From Proteiniphilum acetatigenes DSM 18083 (lineage in GTDB: Bacteria > Bacteroidota > Bacteroidia > Bacteroidales > Dysgonomonadaceae): DNA of 64,000 nucleotides. Position numbers and translations under genes: made by a program. Position 1 is the stretch's first letter. Every line of letters starts with the position of its first letter. The stretch spans positions 1 to 64,000 of the forward strand of contig NZ_KB905707.1 of the NCBI RefSeq assembly GCF_000380985.1, given 5' to 3'. A model generated the notes under the pieces. The model saw only the letters and a program-made list of their open reading frames with translations. It had not been told where the DNA came from and did not search any database. Shown here one piece after another: positions 48,777-58,881 of the stretch.

Positions 48777-49296
48777 TTTATTGTTTTTTGAATAATCGAT
48801 TGGTTTTATCTTTTTTATATTGATTTCTTCAATATTCAATAAAAAATAAAGAAATTTTCAATTTTTACTTGCATAATGTTTTTTGAGGGTGTATATTTGC
48901 ACTATTATAGATTGTAAGGTTGTAGTATTTGAATTTGTTAAAATCCCATGACCGTTTTTGCTATTATGTTTCGGTGGAATTTTTAATGAAATATATCAAA
49001 AACAGGGATGAAAATTTCAGTCTGACGTTTTTTTTAAAAAAAAAGTGCAAAAAACCACGTAATTAAAATAAATGATTTATATTTGCGCAACGTATATATA
49101 ACCACAAAAATGTTAAAATTATGTAGAGTGGTGTTGTAAGATAGTAGAGTTATAGAGTCTCTATGATAGGAAAGGTGTTTGTATGTTAATTATTTTGATA
49201 ATTAATCTTGTATTATTAGTTAAAGCCCTTCCAGCCTATTGAATTGATAGGATAAAAGATGATATTATAATAGTGTTTAATTTAAAAGTAGAGTTT
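48777..49296 (+). promoter_or_regulatory. Long upstream region of susC pair 3 with two promoter-like sites
   Basis: 520 bases without a gene. Site 1: TTG (48869-48871), 20 bases, TATATTTG (48892-48899), a full promoter. Site 2: TATATTTG at 49078-49085 without a clear -33, preceded by a run of eleven T and nine A around 49028-49044. The leader from site 1 to the start codon would be about 390 bases, enough for a regulatory RNA structure or small RNA; ORFs in it are under 30 codons. Confidence 0.55.
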
Positions 49297-52200
49297 ATGA
49301 AAAGAAAGCTAACTATGTTTTTAGCCCTGTTCTTTATTGGGATAGGGCTTGCTGTGGCTCAGACCCAGGTACGCGGTACCGTGGTTGATGAAGCGGGCGA
49401 ACCGGTGATCGGGGCTACCATCCAGATTAAAGGAACATCGCAGGGAACCGTTTCCGATATTGACGGTAATTTCAACCTGTCTGCCCCTGCCGGTGGTACG
49501 CTCGTGATTTCCTATGTAGGATATCAAACACAGGAAGTGCCCGTGAGTGCAAATGTGCAGGTGCAATTAACTACTGACACAGAATTATTGGATGAGGTGG
49601 TTGTGGTTGGGTATGGAACAACAACCCGGAGAGCTTTTACCGGTGCCGCTTCCTCTGTTTCCAATGATTTAATTGAAAACAAGATTGATATTAATCCTGT
49701 TAAGGCACTTGCCGGAACTGTTCCCGGCTTGCAGATGAATGTAGGTTCCGGACAACCGGGTGCTCCGGCCAATATCTTTATTAGAGGTCGAAACTCCGTA
49801 AACTCCGGTACGCAACCTTTATATGTAATTGATGGAGTACCCTTCGAGACGGGTATACAGGGAATGCGTCAGAGTGAAGGGCAACAGATGAGCCCTCTGG
49901 CCACCATTAGTGCGCAGGATATTGAAAGTGTTACGGTACTGAAGGATGCAAGTGCTACTTCTATTTATGGAGCAAGGGCTGCCAATGGTGTAATTGTGAT
50001 TACCACGAAAAAAGGTAAGAGAGGATTGAATATTGATTTTACGGCAAGAGTGGGTACCGAGAGTATGCCGAGTTATACAGATAACTATAAACTTGTGGAT
50101 GCCGATACCTATAGACAACTTTCAAAGGAAGCATTGTTGAATGGTTATAATTATGCTTCGACAGTAGGAAGATCAAGTTACTTTCAACTATATAATGACG
50201 CTTATAGCTTAGGACTTCCTTATAATGAATCGGGAGCAGAAGATTTTTTCAGTTGGTATACCGAAATTGATTACGACTCTCCTTATAATACTGACTGGTT
50301 AAAAGAGGTTACACGTACGGGATTGATTCAAAATTATACCCTGACACTCAATGGAGGCGGTGAAACTGCTACAGCGGCACGTTATTATACTTCTGTGGAT
50401 TATTTCGATACGAAGGCTATCGTGAGAGGAAAAGACATGAAGAGGTATTCTTTCCGTTTTAATTTTGATCAGGCACCTACTGAGAAAGTAGCTTATGGAT
50501 TCAATTCCAATGTGGCACATACCATTACCAATATGGGAGCCGGAGGAGGATATTTCTCCGATCCCATCACGCAGGCTATTATGCAAAGTCCGCTTTCTCC
50601 TGTCTATAATGAAGACGGCACATGGAATTTTAATACCATTAATGGTTATAACCCGGTTGCCCAAAGAAGTGAGTTAGGAGATAAAAGTGAAGCAAAACAG
50701 TATCGTTTTATTTTTTCTCCCTATGTAACTTATAAATTTATTGATGAATTAAGTTTTACATCACGATTAGGTGTGGATGGGTACCTGATTGATGAGTTTG
50801 GAACCTGGTCATTCCTGCAACCACAAGGTAAGGATATGAGAGGCTTGGGTGAAAATGGTTACAGGGCTAATTTTGTTACAACCATTACGAACACACTCAA
50901 TTATGGCAAAAATTTTGACGGACATAATCTGGATGTATTGTTAGGGCAGGAAGGACAAAAAACCAACTATAAAGGTACTTATCTGGCCGGATCAAATTAT
51001 CCCGTTGACTATTTGGAAGATGTTGAACTGGCAGCTACTCCGGGTAGTGCTTCTACAACCAGGAGGGAGTTGGTTTTAAATTCATATTTTTCAAGAGCTG
51101 AATATAACTATAATGAAAAATATTATCTGTCCGGAAGTTTTCGTATGGATGGTTCTTCCAGATTCTCAAAGGAAAACCGATGGGCTCCTTTCTGGTCAGC
51201 CGGTGCTAAGTATCGTATATCAAGTGAAAACTTTATGCAAGGAATTGACTGGTTGGATGATTTGACCGTTCGTGCCAGCTACGGTACATCAGGTAATCAA
51301 ACAGTAGGAAATCTTGATATAATGCAGGGTTGGTATGCTTCGCGCAATCTCTATGATTTTGGTTATAACTACAATGGACAACCGGGTTCAAACCGTTTGC
51401 AGATTGGAAATAGTTCGTTGAAATGGGAAAGAACTGCCAAATTTAATGTGGGATTGGATGTTATGTTATTTAATTTCCTGACTGTGTCTGCCGATTATTA
51501 TAAACACAGAACAAAGGATATGGTATTTGGTGTACCGCTTTCACGCACTACAGGTATGAGTTCTTCTTACCTCAATGTGGGAGAATTGGAAAACCAAGGT
51601 GTGGAATTCTCCATAATGGCACGTCTCTTCAGTCGGAATGATTTCTCCTGGAACGTGACTCTAAACGGTTCACACAATAAAAATGAGATTATCAAGTTAA
51701 GCACTGATAATCCAATTGAATATACTTATCAAATTATAGAACCGGGAAAAGATTACTATACTTTCTTTATGAAAGAGTGGGCTGGGGTTGACCCGGAAAC
51801 CGGAGTTGGTATGTGGTACCTGAACGAAGAAGGAGATGAAACAACCACCAATTATAATGCTGCTAAAAAACGGTATGTGGGTAAAGCGACTCCTGATTTT
51901 CAAGGTGGACTTACCAATAATCTCCAATGGAAAGGGTTTGATATGAGTTTCCAAATTAATTTCTCGGTAGGCGGTAAAATATATGGAAACCATCTGCGTT
52001 ATGATGAACAAATTGGTAATTCGTTCGGATCTCCATTTACAAAATATGTGGCTGAAAACAGATGGCAGAAACCTGGGGATATTGCAAAGGTGCCGATGTT
52101 AATGTTTACCACCGGTGTAACCGAAAATTCGCATTCATCCCGTTTCCTGATGGATGGCTCTTATGTGAAATTCAGATCTTTGTCTTTAGGTTATACCTTG

Positions 52201-53886: not shown

Positions 53887-54220
53887 GTGATATGCTGTGC
53901 AGTGTGCCGTGAAAACGGGAGATAATTCTCTCGTTCGTAACTGCAATATAGATGGGAGTTTGGCCTCCCGCAATCGCTTTACAGGAAGAGGTGTAAGCCG
54001 GTGTATGCTGCTTTGTCCAAAAGTCAAGGTAGTAAGTGATACATTTAAAAGGCGAAAGATATCCGTCAGGTGACTATATAGGAGATGACCGCAACTTTCA
54101 GGAAGAAAACCCGCCGAAAACGTAGGCAATATAGAATGAGATTTAGGATATCGTCTGCATAATAAACAAAAGTTTATTACCTTTGTCGAGTCGAAGAAGG
54201 ATAATTAACAAAGGAGCGCC
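53887..54220 (+). promoter_or_regulatory. Non-coding stretch with promoter for a small ORF
   Basis: No gene is seen to 54177. TACCTTTG at 54178-54185 matches TAnnTTTG, and a strong purine-rich ribosome site, AAAGGAG (54210-54216), stands before the ATG at 54221. Such an explicit Shine-Dalgarno is unusual among the genes of this window. Confidence 0.5.
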
Positions 54221-54352
54221 ATGAAACAGTACGTGTCAAAAGAACGGAGGAAACTGGAAAAGGAACACCTATTTTATCTTCGTAAATACCGGTTCTTCAA
54301 TCCCGGTTTACACATAAAAATGATCTGGGTTGGATTATATCGCAAATCGTAG
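54221..54352 (+). CDS. Small basic protein (43 aa), unknown
   Basis: A 43-residue ORF, MKQYVSKERRKLEKEHLFYL then RKYRFFNPGLHIKM and an end at LYRKS. It has its own -7 box and a strong ribosome site, and is rich in Lys/Arg. The 35 bases coding YVSKERRKLEKE recur at 54989-55023 with four mismatches, there also readable as YVSRERRKLEKE but followed by a stop, so a second, decayed copy exists. I do not recognise the family. Confidence 0.45.
   Translation: MKQYVSKERRKLEKEHLFYLRKYRFFNPGLHIKMIWVGLYRKS
54230..54264 (+). repeat. 35-bp repeat P, copy 1
   Basis: Matches 54989-55023 at 31 of 35 bases, same orientation. Lies in the small ORF before the DUF5053 gene. Confidence 0.75.
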
Positions 54353-54422
54353 AGGAGTTGAAAAGTGATGTTTAACAGAAGGTCTTACCTGATAAGGGGT
54401 AAGACACAAAAACGAAAAAAAT

Positions 54423-54818
54423 ATGACAACAGGCGAAAAATTTGAAGAGATGAAAAAGAAAGACATAGCTGCCAAATCTGATCGGGAGCGGATGGTTATT
54501 GATAAAGAATTAGAACAGCTTGCAAATAACGATCCGGAAGGTTTTGAAGCCGCTTTTATAGCAAGTGCAAAGCAAACGCTTGTAGACGCCAAGCGTTTGA
54601 GAATAAAAGAGCAAATGAGAGAGATTACACAATTCGTATCCATGTCGTATATCGCGAAGAATTATTTCAACAAAACAAAAAGCTGGCTTAGCCAGCGTAT
54701 AAATGGGCACGATGTGAACGGCAGACAGGCTCAATTTACGCCCGAAGAAATAGATACGCTCAACAAAGCGTTTTCCGATCTGTCTCAAAAATTAGCTGCA
54801 TTTCGTGTTTCTTTGTAA
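54423..54818 (+). CDS. DUF5053-type protein
   Basis: A 131-residue protein resembling DUF5053 proteins found in Bacteroidetes accessory regions. The N-terminus is highly charged and helical (KFEEMKKKDIAAKSDRERM, KELEQLANNDPEGFEAAF); the C-terminal half has a possible HTH: FVSMSYIAKNYFNKTKSWLSQRINGHDVNG followed by TPEEIDTLNKAFSDLSQKLA. The SWLSQRINGH stretch looks like a recognition helix, so DNA binding is possible. Function is not known. Its last codons begin a 76-bp sequence repeated at 55789. Confidence 0.7.
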   Translation: MTTGEKFEEMKKKDIAAKSDRERMVIDKELEQLANNDPEGFEAAFIASAKQTLVDAKRLRIKEQMREITQFVSMSYIAKNYFNKTKSWLSQRINGHDVNGRQAQFTPEEIDTLNKAFSDLSQKLAAFRVSL

Positions 54819-54883
54819 ACAACCCCGCATTCGCTACCCGGATGTGGAACCCATTTAATCCCTGATCAGCGGTCAGGGTAAAG
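54808..54883 (+). repeat. 76-bp repeat R, copy 1
   Basis: Aligns with 55789-55865 in the same orientation: shared blocks TTTCTTTGTAAA, CATTC, GGA/CCCATTTA, CCT, ATC and GTCAGGGTAAAG. In copy 1 the first block encodes the VSL-stop of DUF5053. Confidence 0.65.
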
Positions 54884-54988
54884 GAAAAAGGAAGGTGGCT
54901 CCTTATTGTATTACCTTGGCTATAAGAAGGCGAAATGCGTGATAATTCATGAAACTGTTTCCCCGGTTCTTCCAGCAAGCGGATATTC

Positions 54989-55023
54989 TACGTATCAAGA
55001 GAACGGAGGAAATTAGAAAAGGA
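54989..55023 (+). repeat. 35-bp repeat P, copy 2
   Basis: Matches 54230-54264 at 31 of 35 bases. Its 3' end runs into the first unit of the 23-bp tandem repeat. Confidence 0.75.
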
Positions 55024-55163
55024 GCTTGTAGCCTAATATCGAACGATGCGGTATTCTAATAACGAATAGTTTGATAGCCTAATGTCGACCGGTTCGATAG
55101 CCTCGTATCGAATAAACCGACAGCCCCGAGTAGAATAGTCCGACAGCCTCGTGTCGAATGCCC
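55016..55163 (+). repeat. 23-bp tandem repeat, about six units
   Basis: Six consecutive 23-base units at 55016, 55039, 55062, 55085, 55108 and 55131 and a partial seventh to 55163. The best units read TCGAATArnCCGAcAGCCtC plus GTG, with TCGA at the start and AGCC at positions 15-18. Conservation improves toward the right. The array ends exactly at the stop codon of the HU-like gene on the other strand. Confidence 0.8.
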
Positions 55164-55736
55164 TTATACGGTGAGCGGATACTCGAATGTGTATGAACGG
55201 GGTTCTTTCAGTAGTGTTTTCGGGGCATCCCCTTTGATACGTATGCGGGTGCCCTTTACATTGACCCCGCCCCCGGGCGTGAGTTGGCTGTTCTCTTTGC
55301 CGGAAGTGGTATCCATTACGGAGTTAATGACGGTATCGGAAACAGCCAGTCCCCTGACGTTGACGGTAGTCGATTCCAGGGCCTTTCGCACGTCCGGACT
55401 TGGAGCCATGCGTATCGACAGGCTATGCCTGCTACTGTCCCACTGGGCATTGTCCCCTATGAACAGGCCGTTTACCTTTAGCATGAAAAAGCCAAGGCCG
55501 AAAGAGACGGATGCCCCGTTACAGAGTTCCTCCACGGCTACTTGTTTGAGGATGTCGAAAGATGCTTTCAGGGTAGTGGCATTCAGGTCGGTCCGGCGGG
55601 CTACCGCCGTTCTTATCAGGTCGTCCTCAGTGAGCGATTTACTGGTTACCACACGGCCGAAACGGTCGTCTTTGCGCTTGGTGATCGGAAGGTCGTACAA
55701 CTCTACCATTACCTTGTTTTTTCCAGTTGTTGCCAT
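55164..55736 (-). CDS. HU-like DNA-binding protein with DUF4469-type C-terminus
   Basis: A 190-residue protein. Start 55736 (MATTGKNKVMVELYDLPITK) is chosen over 55811, whose extra residues are atypical. Residues about 1-120 match the Bacteroidetes HU-DNA-binding family (TSKSLTEDDLIRTAVARRTDLNATTLKASFDILKQVAVEELCNGASVSFG), and the C-terminus (LTPGGGVNVKGTRIRIKGDAPK to PRSYTFEY) resembles the Ig-like DUF4469 domain. Such proteins are predicted nucleoid or mobile-element-associated DNA binders. It lies alone between the tandem repeat and repeat R copy 2. Confidence 0.8.
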   Translation of the reverse strand: MATTGKNKVMVELYDLPITKRKDDRFGRVVTSKSLTEDDLIRTAVARRTDLNATTLKASFDILKQVAVEELCNGASVSFGLGFFMLKVNGLFIGDNAQWDSSRHSLSIRMAPSPDVRKALESTTVNVRGLAVSDTVINSVMDTTSGKENSQLTPGGGVNVKGTRIRIKGDAPKTLLKEPRSYTFEYPLTV

Positions 55737-55788
55737 TATTATTTGATTTAGATATTGTTTCAAGGATATAGATTTGCTACATTCCTCG

Positions 55789-55865
55789 TTTCTTTGTAAA
55801 TGACCCTTCATTCACAATCTCGAACATGGATCCCATTTAGTTCCTAATCCGAAGTCAGGGTAAAG
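55789..55865 (+). repeat. 76-bp repeat R, copy 2
   Basis: Second copy of 54808-54883, upstream of the HU-like gene. It begins with the bases that encode the end of DUF5053 in copy 1, although no DUF5053 coding sequence precedes it here. Confidence 0.65.
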
Positions 55866-56033: not shown

Positions 56034-57338
56034 ATGGAAAGAATAGCAATGAATCATCTAAAAACGTGGAAGCATAAGGCGAAAAGAAAACCGCTTATTG
56101 TGCGCGGAGCACGTCAGGTAGGAAAAACGTGGCTGATAAAAAAATTCGGTAGAGAAGAGTATGCACAAATGGCATATATCAATTTTGAGGAGTCAAGAAT
56201 CATGCAAGGTTTATTCTCCTCTGATTTTGATATTCCAAGGATTATCAATGCCATACAGATTGAGACAGGGATACAGGTGCATGCGGAGAGCACGTTAATT
56301 GTTTTTGATGAGATACAGGAAGCTGAGGGAGGGCTTACCTCGTTAAAGTACTTCTGTGAAAATGCGCCCGAATATCATATAATCGCGGCCGGTTCTTTAT
56401 TGGGCATTTCATTACATAGTACAAAGTCCTTCCCCGTCGGGAAAGTCGAATTCATGGAGCTTTATCCGTTGAATTTCGCTGAGTTTTTGTCGGCCCTTCA
56501 TCAGAAACCTCTGTTAGACCTTTTACAAAGCAGAGACTGGGGACTCGTGAGAACGTTTAAAGAAAAATACAGCTATTTTTTGCGCCACTATTATTATATC
56601 GGGGGGATGCCGGAAGTTGTTTCTTCGTTTATTCATAATAATGATTATGATGAGGTGAGAAGTATTCAAAAAGAAATTCTGACTGCCTATGATCAGGATT
56701 TTTCTAAACATGTACCTCCTGATGTTGTTCCGCGTTTGCGGCAGCTATGGAATTCTATCCCCAGTCAATTATCAAAAGAAAACAGGAAGTTTATTTTCGG
56801 GTTGATAAAAAAAGGAGCCCGTGCAAGGGAATATGAGATGGCCTTGATGTGGCTTATCGACTGTGGTCTCATATACCAGATCAAACGGATTTCCAAACCG
56901 GATATTCCGCTGAAAGGGTATGCCGACAATTCCGCATTTAAAATATATATGTCAGATGTCGGTTTGTTGGCCGCTATGGGGGATATAGACGTAAAAACAC
57001 TATTGGAAGGTAATGCTATCTTTGAAGAATTTAAAGGAGCGTTGACCGAACAATATGTGCTCCAGCAACTTATTGTCAATCCGGATATGCCGATTTTTTA
57101 TTGGTCTGCTGAAAAAGCAACGGCAGAAGTGGACTTTGTCATACAATATTCCGGAAAAGTAATTCCAATTGAAGTAAAAGCCGAAGAAAACCTCAAAGCA
57201 AAAAGCTTACAATCCTATTGTCAAAAATACAATCCGGATGTTGCTCTAAGGATTTCCATGTCCGACTACCGGGAACAGGATAGGTTAATTAACATCCCCT
57301 TGTATGCCTTGGCTATACAGGATATTTTAGAGCCATAG
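56034..57338 (+). CDS. AAA ATPase with DUF4143 domain (1)
   Basis: A 434-residue ATPase of the large DUF4143 group. Walker A is RGARQVGKTWL (G25-T32), Walker B LIVFDEIQEA (about 88-97), followed by the sensor region HIIAAGSLLGI. The C-terminal DUF4143 part starts near residue 200 and ends with a PD-(D/E)xK-like nuclease pattern: FYWSAEKATAEVDFVI then KVIPIEVKAEEN. The role of these abundant proteins is not known; defence or DNA-repair roles have been proposed. The gene has direct repeats at its promoter and converges on a second member at 57691. Confidence 0.88.
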   Translation: MERIAMNHLKTWKHKAKRKPLIVRGARQVGKTWLIKKFGREEYAQMAYINFEESRIMQGLFSSDFDIPRIINAIQIETGIQVHAESTLIVFDEIQEAEGGLTSLKYFCENAPEYHIIAAGSLLGISLHSTKSFPVGKVEFMELYPLNFAEFLSALHQKPLLDLLQSRDWGLVRTFKEKYSYFLRHYYYIGGMPEVVSSFIHNNDYDEVRSIQKEILTAYDQDFSKHVPPDVVPRLRQLWNSIPSQLSKENRKFIFGLIKKGARAREYEMALMWLIDCGLIYQIKRISKPDIPLKGYADNSAFKIYMSDVGLLAAMGDIDVKTLLEGNAIFEEFKGALTEQYVLQQLIVNPDMPIFYWSAEKATAEVDFVIQYSGKVIPIEVKAEENLKAKSLQSYCQKYNPDVALRISMSDYREQDRLINIPLYALAIQDILEP

Positions 57339-57353
57339 CACAGAAGTTGAAGT

Positions 57354-57386
57354 TTACAATTTTGGAATTCAATTCCAAAATTGTAA
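57354..57386. repeat. Perfect 33-bp palindrome after ATPase 1
   Basis: TTACAATTTTGGAATT, a central C, then its exact reverse complement. 16-bp arms with a one-base centre. It begins 15 bases after the stop codon. It may serve as a terminator-like structure or a binding site for a dimeric protein. Confidence 0.8.
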
Positions 57387-57546
57387 GAAATATTTCAGGG
57401 GTTGAAACGTAATAACGTCAACCTGTCATTCGTATCGGACGAAGTCATTTCCAGAATTGAATTACACGATACGATAACGAAAACCCCATGTATATATTAT
57501 TAAACGAAATACCCGGAGCGATAAAATAGGTAGACGAATGCATAAA

Positions 57547-57690: not shown

Positions 57691-58881
57691 TTACAATTCG
57701 AATAAATCAGTTGGATTCATGCTCAAAAATTGCTCAAAAGGGATACCGTTCGTACCAATAGTAAAAATTCCGTATGGATGAAATTCTTCGTCAAATAATG
57801 TTAACCCCTTGCTGACACTTTCTTTCCCGCTTTTTACCTCTAACGCAACGATTTTACTTCCTTTTTCAATCACGAAGTCTACTTCATAACTTCCCCGGTT
57901 CCAGTAGTATACGTTAAATCTGTATTTCAATCCACTGTTAATCAAATGTGCACCGACAGCAGACTCAACAAAACGGCCCCACTCTTTGGCTTCGTTACGC
58001 AAAATACCGAATGACAAATTTTGCCCCGCGGTGAGCAAAGCATTGTTATGTACCTGAAATTTTGGTTTAGAAGCGCGCTTTCGTATTACATCAGCAGCAT
58101 ATTTCTCTAATCCCGAAAGTAAACCGGCTTCCTTCAACAGATTAAGATATCCCGATAAGGTTGTTAAATTCCCGGATTCCTGTAATTCTCCCTGTACTTT
58201 CGTCAAAGACAATATCTGGGAAGAGTATTTACAACCTATATCGAATAAACGTTTGAGTAGTATTGGTTTATCCACACGGGTCATCATCAGTATATCTTTT
58301 GAAATAGTGCTTTCCACCAGTGAATCACGTACATAATCTTTCCACCGCTCCTCGTCAGAGACTAATGATGCTGATCCCGGATAACCCCCAAAATAAATGT
58401 ACTGTTCAATATTCCAGCCAAAAGCTTCGCGCATCTCTTCGAAAGACCAATGCGTGATGTTGGTTAATTCGTAACGGCCCGCAAGAGATTCGGTAAGCCC
58501 CTTCTGAATAAGAAGACGTGAAGAACCCAACAGGACGACTTTGATGTTGGTATCGGAAAATGTGTCTTCATCCCATTCCTTTTTTACCGCCTCACTCCAA
58601 TTCGGGGCCTTTTGTACTTCATCAACAATAAGTAAAAACTCTTTTATGTTGTTTTGTTGCATTTGGAGCCGTGCATTTCCCCATTCCCGCCTGATCCATG
58701 TGGTGTCCGCAGCATATAAATCATCAGCCGTAACAAAATAATGAGGCATATCTGTTTTTTGCAAGAATTGTTTGATTAATGTGGTTTTTCCTACCTGACG
58801 AGGTCCAACCACTACCTGTATAAACTTGCGTGGTTCAGAAATCCTTTTTGTAATATCTTTTAAAACAGCTCTTTCAAACAT
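57691..58881 (-). CDS. AAA ATPase with DUF4143 domain (2)
   Basis: A 396-residue relative of the ATPase at 56034 but from a different subgroup. Walker A is VGPRQVGKTTL (G26-T33), Walker B FLLIVDEVQKA, sensor KVVLLGSSRLL, and the C-terminus has the nuclease-like pattern NVYYWNRGSYEVDFVIEKGSK then IVALEVKSG. Residues about 195-280 form the DUF4143 helical region. Its start codon is preceded by 12-bp direct repeats next to a -7 box. Tail-to-tail with ATPase 1. Confidence 0.88.
   Translation of the reverse strand: MFERAVLKDITKRISEPRKFIQVVVGPRQVGKTTLIKQFLQKTDMPHYFVTADDLYAADTTWIRREWGNARLQMQQNNIKEFLLIVDEVQKAPNWSEAVKKEWDEDTFSDTNIKVVLLGSSRLLIQKGLTESLAGRYELTNITHWSFEEMREAFGWNIEQYIYFGGYPGSASLVSDEERWKDYVRDSLVESTISKDILMMTRVDKPILLKRLFDIGCKYSSQILSLTKVQGELQESGNLTTLSGYLNLLKEAGLLSGLEKYAADVIRKRASKPKFQVHNNALLTAGQNLSFGILRNEAKEWGRFVESAVGAHLINSGLKYRFNVYYWNRGSYEVDFVIEKGSKIVALEVKSGKESVSKGLTLFDEEFHPYGIFTIGTNGIPFEQFLSMNPTDLFEL

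Follow-up and report, generated by a model that had tools for sequence, protein, structure and literature searches.

Introduction

The window analysed here, a stretch of 64,000 nucleotides from Proteiniphilum acetatigenes DSM 18083, contains two successive slots, each opening with a copy of a short repeat (P) and closing with a copy of a longer repeat (R). An earlier note on this DNA had recognized that the enclosed genes differ, with a DUF5053 gene in slot 1 and an HU-like gene in slot 2, and had proposed that P and R are conserved borders around an exchangeable payload. The locus therefore raises the question of whether the two repeats are borders of this kind or parts of a single ancestral unit. 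Quite probably, the slots represent two copies of a phage-borne two-gene DUF5053 operon, of which the first survives and the second is dead, and in which DUF5053 would be the autorepressor of its own operon.

Nature of the Repeats P and R

The two copies of P (P1, 54230–54264, and P2, 54989–55023, both on the + strand) agree at 31 of 35 positions in the window comparison, exactly as the earlier note had counted, and a P-derived pattern with up to three mismatches is found at these two sites of the window only and in none of 100 shuffles. The two copies of R (R1, 54791–54883, and R2, 55772–55865, both on the + strand) had likewise been correctly paired, but the length of 76 bp assigned to them was too short, since they extend over 93–94 nt with 75.5% identity and a single 1-nt gap; the order of repeats and genes is as that note described. 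P is coding sequence inside a short open reading frame (ORF) that starts at 54221, with a promoter upstream, and P1 and P2 are distinguished by three silent changes and one K-to-R replacement; P2 is a remnant of the small ORF of the dead unit and has no start codon. R begins within the final nine codons of DUF5053 (LAAFRVSL-stop) and continues into the 3′ flank, and R2 opens with a remnant of the same frame end (FATFLVSL-stop), so that its resemblance to the DUF5053-ending codons had been correctly read. Because P lies in the first gene and R at the end of DUF5053, the interval from P to R spans a two-gene operon, and P and R are, judged by sequence, the ends of a small operon and not generic borders. 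Folding, considered in connection with a terminator of the unit, gave z-scores of −1.63 for R1 and 0.16 for R2 in the window.

P and R were searched for separately in 199 genomes, of which the best four candidates per genome were scored. At this depth, R over its full length and P over a long stretch are matched in P. acetatigenes and in one relative (G015) only, each having two matches to the P region and two to R (identities of 100 and 76% in P. acetatigenes and of 97 and 89% in G015). Within the same best four candidates per genome, another relative (G025) matches just the first 27 nt of R, which are DUF5053 codons, a further 22 genomes match R over 17–34 nt with E of 0.005 or weaker, and a further 68 match the P region over 17–35 nt with E of 0.001 or weaker. 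The P. acetatigenes genome itself (4.78 Mb in 37 contigs, the window belonging to contig C16) has no further P or R match at E ≤ 10 among the best 40 of 43 candidates. A 2.2-kb query was additionally compared with 61 genomes, namely P. acetatigenes and 60 relatives, 37 of the 61 being from one genus; among the best four candidates per genome it matched 11 of the 61, mostly at other parts, and the arrangement P-DUF5053-R was found in G015 only, as two units that share approximately 92% identity with unit 1 and occupy the same locus. Both G015 units contain DUF5053. At this depth of search, the proposal of conserved borders with an exchangeable payload is thus not borne out, P and R enclosing DUF5053 in both G015 units, and a constant gene is the outcome which the earlier note had itself set against that proposal. 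Its suggestion of a duplicated ancestral P-gene-R unit, by contrast, agrees with the two whole units at one locus in G015. Furthermore, a Pfam search of the four gene-sized ORFs in the gap revealed no recombinase among them, in line with the absence of a nearby integrase already remarked upon, and no plasmid match was found. In a set of 84 DUF5053 loci, P-like DNA is present in two phage loci at the equivalent position upstream of DUF5053, and this set contains no HU homologue, AAA homologue, R non-coding DNA, or array of the kind found in slot 2.

A Probable Dead Unit in Slot 2

Because long P and R matches, among the best four candidates per genome, are confined to this locus and that of G015, where both units contain DUF5053, slot 2 is read as a dead unit. 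R2 (76%) has diverged further than P2 (89%), and the two ends might hence derive from different units. The HU-like gene (55164–55736, − strand) belongs to the HU domain family PF14848 (E 2.6e-24); in comparison with a 62%-identical homologue in another genome (G084), approximately 54 alignment columns, or codons, of the Ig-like part are missing, and the Ig-like tail (PF14734) is incomplete, covering profile positions 1–37 of 101. A second HU-like gene is present on contig C4 of the same genome, and a short HU-family 3′ remnant on contig C1. The possibility that the HU gene is regular cargo of DUF5053 units was considered and rejected, as no HU homologue occurs in 28 DUF5053 loci or in the 84-locus set; literature searches for HU-HIG or HU-CCDC81 returned only apparently unrelated items. 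The HU-like gene in slot 2 thus has the appearance of debris and not of a payload carried by a system that swaps genes. Of the payload replacement envisaged in the earlier note, the part that stands is that the original gene of slot 2 is gone and another gene is present, whereas the cassette-like exchange is not supported.

Between P2 and the HU-like gene lies a 23-bp tandem array (55027–55159) of decayed palindromic units; its core as detected by Tandem Repeats Finder (TRF; 55095–55159) comprises 2.8 copies with 76% matches, and decayed units can be followed by eye back to P2. Array units read as palindromes, e.g., TTCGATA-GCCTCG-TATCGAA, others being decayed, and the array, when folded as single-stranded DNA, does somewhat better than its shuffled versions (z −2.1, 5/200). 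A dispersed repeat was rejected as its identity: the motif has six exact matches in the genome, of which four are inside the array itself, and allowing one mismatch raises it to 42, no more than the 52 of a backwards control. A 20-base core is absent from the viral contigs searched.

An ancestral P-DUF5053-R unit, as the comparison with G015 suggests, would have been present twice at the same chromosomal place. Unit 2 would have lost its interior, with only its two ends being left, and an AAA gene located between the two units would have been mostly deleted. The HU-like gene and the 23-bp array would have arrived by ordinary, not site-specific, events, and the HU gene would itself have lost a portion of its coding sequence.

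The Chromosomal Site

The site is bounded by a SusD-like gene and a major facilitator superfamily (MFS) gene, the latter being found in 12 of 39 genomes of the genus at E ≤ 1e-100. Where the SusD-like match and the MFS gene share one contig, the distance between them is 143 (G036), 298 (G022), 445 (G012), 1052 (G010), 1686 (G008), 1945 (G007), and 3215 bp (G031), reaching 5192 bp in the window and 10581 bp in G015; no SusD-like match was found in G001, G002, and G025. Of the 12 MFS loci, three, namely those of the window, G015, and G025, contain DNA of the P/R/DUF5053 unit. At the same locus of G025, a C-terminal remnant of DUF5053 (58 residues, 86% identical) remains, which is read as adjoining a PIN-domain gene and apparent SusD and OmpA debris, and the gap in G015 also contains two DDE transposases and AAA/DUF4143 fragments. 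The site is one that gains and loses genes.

One of the two G015 units, copy A, is adjoined by a convergent AAA_14/DUF4143 gene. In the window, the match to copy A continues past R1 over 54884–54954 (− strand), comprising the 3′ flank and approximately the last 15 codons of this gene; since it ends there, an AAA_14/DUF4143 gene is missing between the two slots. Two further AAA_14/DUF4143 genes are located at 56034–57338 (+ strand) and 57691–58881 (− strand), both assigned by PADLOC to the candidate defence family PDC-S01 (E 1.8e-184 and 3.7e-178, respectively), and the genome has 11 DUF4143 matches. As a constant partner of DUF5053, AAA_14/DUF4143 was rejected, with none in the 28 loci and none in the 84-locus set that includes them. 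A literature search for DUF4143 in Bacteroid- taxa found nothing.

Two side observations concern the surroundings. At 49273–49557, a SusC-like gene matches G015 DNA, but the match extends no further than 49557 even though a SusC-like gene is found here in both genomes; it looks as if the 5′ part had stayed constant and the sequence following it had been exchanged. Furthermore, the DNA at 57350–57493 is common to two places in the G015 gap that form a 486-bp direct repeat (97.5%); it reads as a remnant of another AAA/DUF4143 gene and includes a 33-nt palindrome.

The Surviving Unit and DUF5053

Unit 1 begins with a promoter and predicted operator (54161–54185, + strand), in which the palindrome AATAAAC-AAAA-GTTTATT (54161–54178) runs into a −7 box, TACCTTTG (54178–54185), this assignment resting on the class test described below. 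The small ORF (54221–54352, + strand; 43 codons), which contains P1, is frameshifted relative to the intact 51-codon ORF of G015 copy A, small deletions having broken the ORFs of the window and of G015 copy B. An RNA hairpin (54382–54405, + strand; −13.6 kcal/mol, z −5.0) is located between the small ORF and the DUF5053 gene (54423–54818, + strand), a predicted helix-turn-helix (HTH) autorepressor. The encoded protein belongs to PF16476 (E 3.1e-29; 100.9 bits versus a gathering score of 26.6), matching profile positions 1–68 of 71, and is kept under purifying selection, dN/dS being 0.063 between the window and copy A, 0.103 between the window and copy B, and 0.087 between A and B.

The Pfam family DUF5053 carries no stated function, and a literature search by family name found no paper naming it. 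An AlphaFold2 model (mean pLDDT 90.5, pTM 0.65) shows a helical protein in which two short helices and a small β hairpin precede the last helix, an arrangement that may be read as a C-terminal HTH with a small wing. Fold searches with this model yielded no match at E ≤ 0.001; the window protein has no match in PHROGs, in which four families each match one DUF5053 member weakly. The small protein is probably a coiled-coil and would act as an effector or modulator in the proposed mechanism.

Exchange of Sequence Between Unit Copies

At 72 informative substitution sites, where copies A and B of G015 differ, the window unit agrees with B at 49 and with A at 23, and this agreement falls into 12 runs along the unit, with as few in 0 of 10000 shuffles. 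The unit copies are therefore mosaics that have exchanged sequence, most simply by homologous recombination; on this comparison of sequences, recombination between copies took place in either the window lineage or that of G015.

DUF5053 Operons in Phages and Hosts

DUF5053 operons are common on Bacteroidales phage contigs and also occur in hosts. Relatives of DUF5053 were found in 23 of the 199 genomes, in 57 contigs predicted to be viral, not all of which need be so, and in 15 phage records, of which 13 are Porphyromonas phages with mostly partial matches. Of 63 units, 60 have an ORF of 35–70 codons no more than 350 nt upstream of DUF5053, a raw count that includes some ORFs unlike the family (e.g., in L115). 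Comparison of 23 pairs of small ORFs gave pN/pS ≤ 0.55 in each and 0.25 when summed, which places the small ORF of other units under purifying selection. Ten small proteins have no significant Pfam match, and PADLOC, run on one small ORF and two DUF5053 proteins, returned nothing convincing (best E 0.0014). A hairpin upstream of DUF5053, at a threshold of −12 kcal/mol or below, occurs in 52 of 63 units versus 175 of 374 control ORF starts, a moderate excess as a trait of the class.

The Promoter Palindrome and Its Probable Reading by DUF5053

The palindrome was first noticed in 26 units and then tested on viral loci, 56 of the 57 being used (L047 omitted) and 45 remaining after removal of near-identical proteins; three of the 45 (L139, L188, and L148) overlap loci of the discovery set (L048, L050, and L108). 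The box TANNTTTG is present at −200 to −310 in 41 of the 45 loci, with 0.05 expected per locus. A dyad of at least 6/7 accompanies it in 28 of these 41 versus four of the 316 control boxes, which are occurrences of TANNTTTG elsewhere in these loci, and TTG occupies the −33 place in 40 of 43 (for a wider distance range) versus 87 of the 316 controls, contrasts that are slightly flattered since the best box and phase were chosen for units and the best phase only for controls. Among 11 further loci, a dyad of at least 5/7 is in place in five (L076, L078, L080, L082, and L191), that of L191, a Porphyromonas phage, being 7/7, and the element is not in place in the other six.

Coupling between operator and protein was assessed in 51 of 63 units; 11 had been dropped, eight for want of a box in range and three because their dyad was below 4, and a duplicate was removed. 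Uncontrolled, operator distance correlates with the wing at r 0.405, the N-terminus at 0.347, the tail at 0.285, and the recognition helix at 0.265. When the N-terminus and tail are controlled for, the wing retains r 0.305, a value reached by 1 of 2000 permutations, and coupling of the recognition helix is weak (0.185; 56 of 2000); the N-terminus, with the other parts controlled, has 0.111 (86 of 2000). Single-site couplings, expressed as z-scores that ignore ancestry, connect the outermost base to residues 11 and 17 after the invariant Trp and the inner bases to residues −2, −1, and +2. Since the palindrome varies with HTH and wing residues of DUF5053, this protein is probably an autorepressor, acting on its own operon via the predicted operator palindrome. 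For a site placed between −33 and −7 boxes, autorepression is the most straightforward interpretation; activation, or binding of another protein at the palindrome, would be a possible alternative. Mechanistically, DUF5053 would bind the palindrome between these boxes and shut its own operon.

Alternative Explanations

A cassette exchange, with P and R serving as conserved borders for recombination and the enclosed gene as the cargo that is swapped, accords with two slots of like ends and unlike contents and with the exchange of sequence between unit copies. It is very improbable, given that P and R are the coding ends of one operon, that their content elsewhere is DUF5053 throughout (best four candidates per genome), that no recombinase is encoded by the four gap ORFs, and that the 84-locus set is devoid of HU, AAA, R non-coding DNA, and the array. 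A toxin–antitoxin operon would instead comprise the small protein as toxin and DUF5053 as antitoxin and repressor, the surviving unit having lost its toxin. Two small genes with apparent autoregulation, found in phages and, in one contig (L114, 4649–8681), inside a host trp operon between trpC and trpF, are in keeping with this, as is the persistence of purifying selection on DUF5053 while the small ORF is disrupted both in the window and in G015 copy B, which fits loss of a toxin and retention of its repressor. However, the lack of a significant Pfam match for the ten small proteins and the unconvincing PADLOC result argue against it, and a phage accessory regulator would look alike, so that a toxin–antitoxin role is possible but unlikely.

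It is doubtful that the palindrome is bound by another regulator, i.e., a host or phage repressor, with DUF5053 simply carried along behind a shared promoter. A palindrome in the promoter spacer is indeed a general feature of repressed genes, but this one varies with the wing residues of DUF5053 beyond the rest of the protein, and the element precedes DUF5053 operons at unrelated phage and host positions. Beyond the preferred reading of one surviving and one dead copy of an autorepressed operon, a speculative and rather improbable extension would regard DUF5053 operons as a widespread immunity-type module of Bacteroidales phages, each with a repressor variant and its own operator, in which a resident unit would silence incoming units that share its operator type, or be silenced by them, and homologous recombination via the conserved ends would reshuffle the copies; the two slots would then be fossils of such traffic in a spot with candidate defence genes.

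Relation to Known Systems

HicAB is an autoregulated toxin–antitoxin operon with the small gene first, and the unit resembles HicAB-type operons in having a small gene first, a gene for a (predicted) DNA-binding protein second, and a palindromic promoter, although its small proteins match no Pfam family. It also resembles a phage moron, having its own promoter in 41 of 45 viral loci and lying among phage genes, after a terminase gene in L048 (a weak PHROG match, E 2e-5), adjoining a tape-measure gene in L108, and after an integrase gene in L154; unlike a moron, the DUF5053 unit is also found in bacterial chromosomes. With integron-type and other site-specific cassettes, the locus shares two slots with similar ends and different contents; it differs from them in having no recombinase among the gap ORFs, borders that are the coding ends of one operon, and no variety of cargo elsewhere among the best four candidates per genome. 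The slots would reflect ordinary duplication, recombination, and decay, a case in which the two ends of one operon imitate the borders of a cassette. The membership of the slot-1 gene in DUF5053 (PF16476) is established, and the partner gene, operator, and autorepressor role are predictions made here for this family, for which the natural pairs of operator and protein variants constitute a ready specificity data set.

Two other arrangements of DUF5053 units were observed. In G044 (L107, 6880–8499), a unit lies between near-identical copies of a 111–112-aa gene and is hence repeat-bounded too, and in G120 (L112, 1196–12372), five DUF5053 matches are found on one contig, some of them beside apparent HicA/HicB genes.
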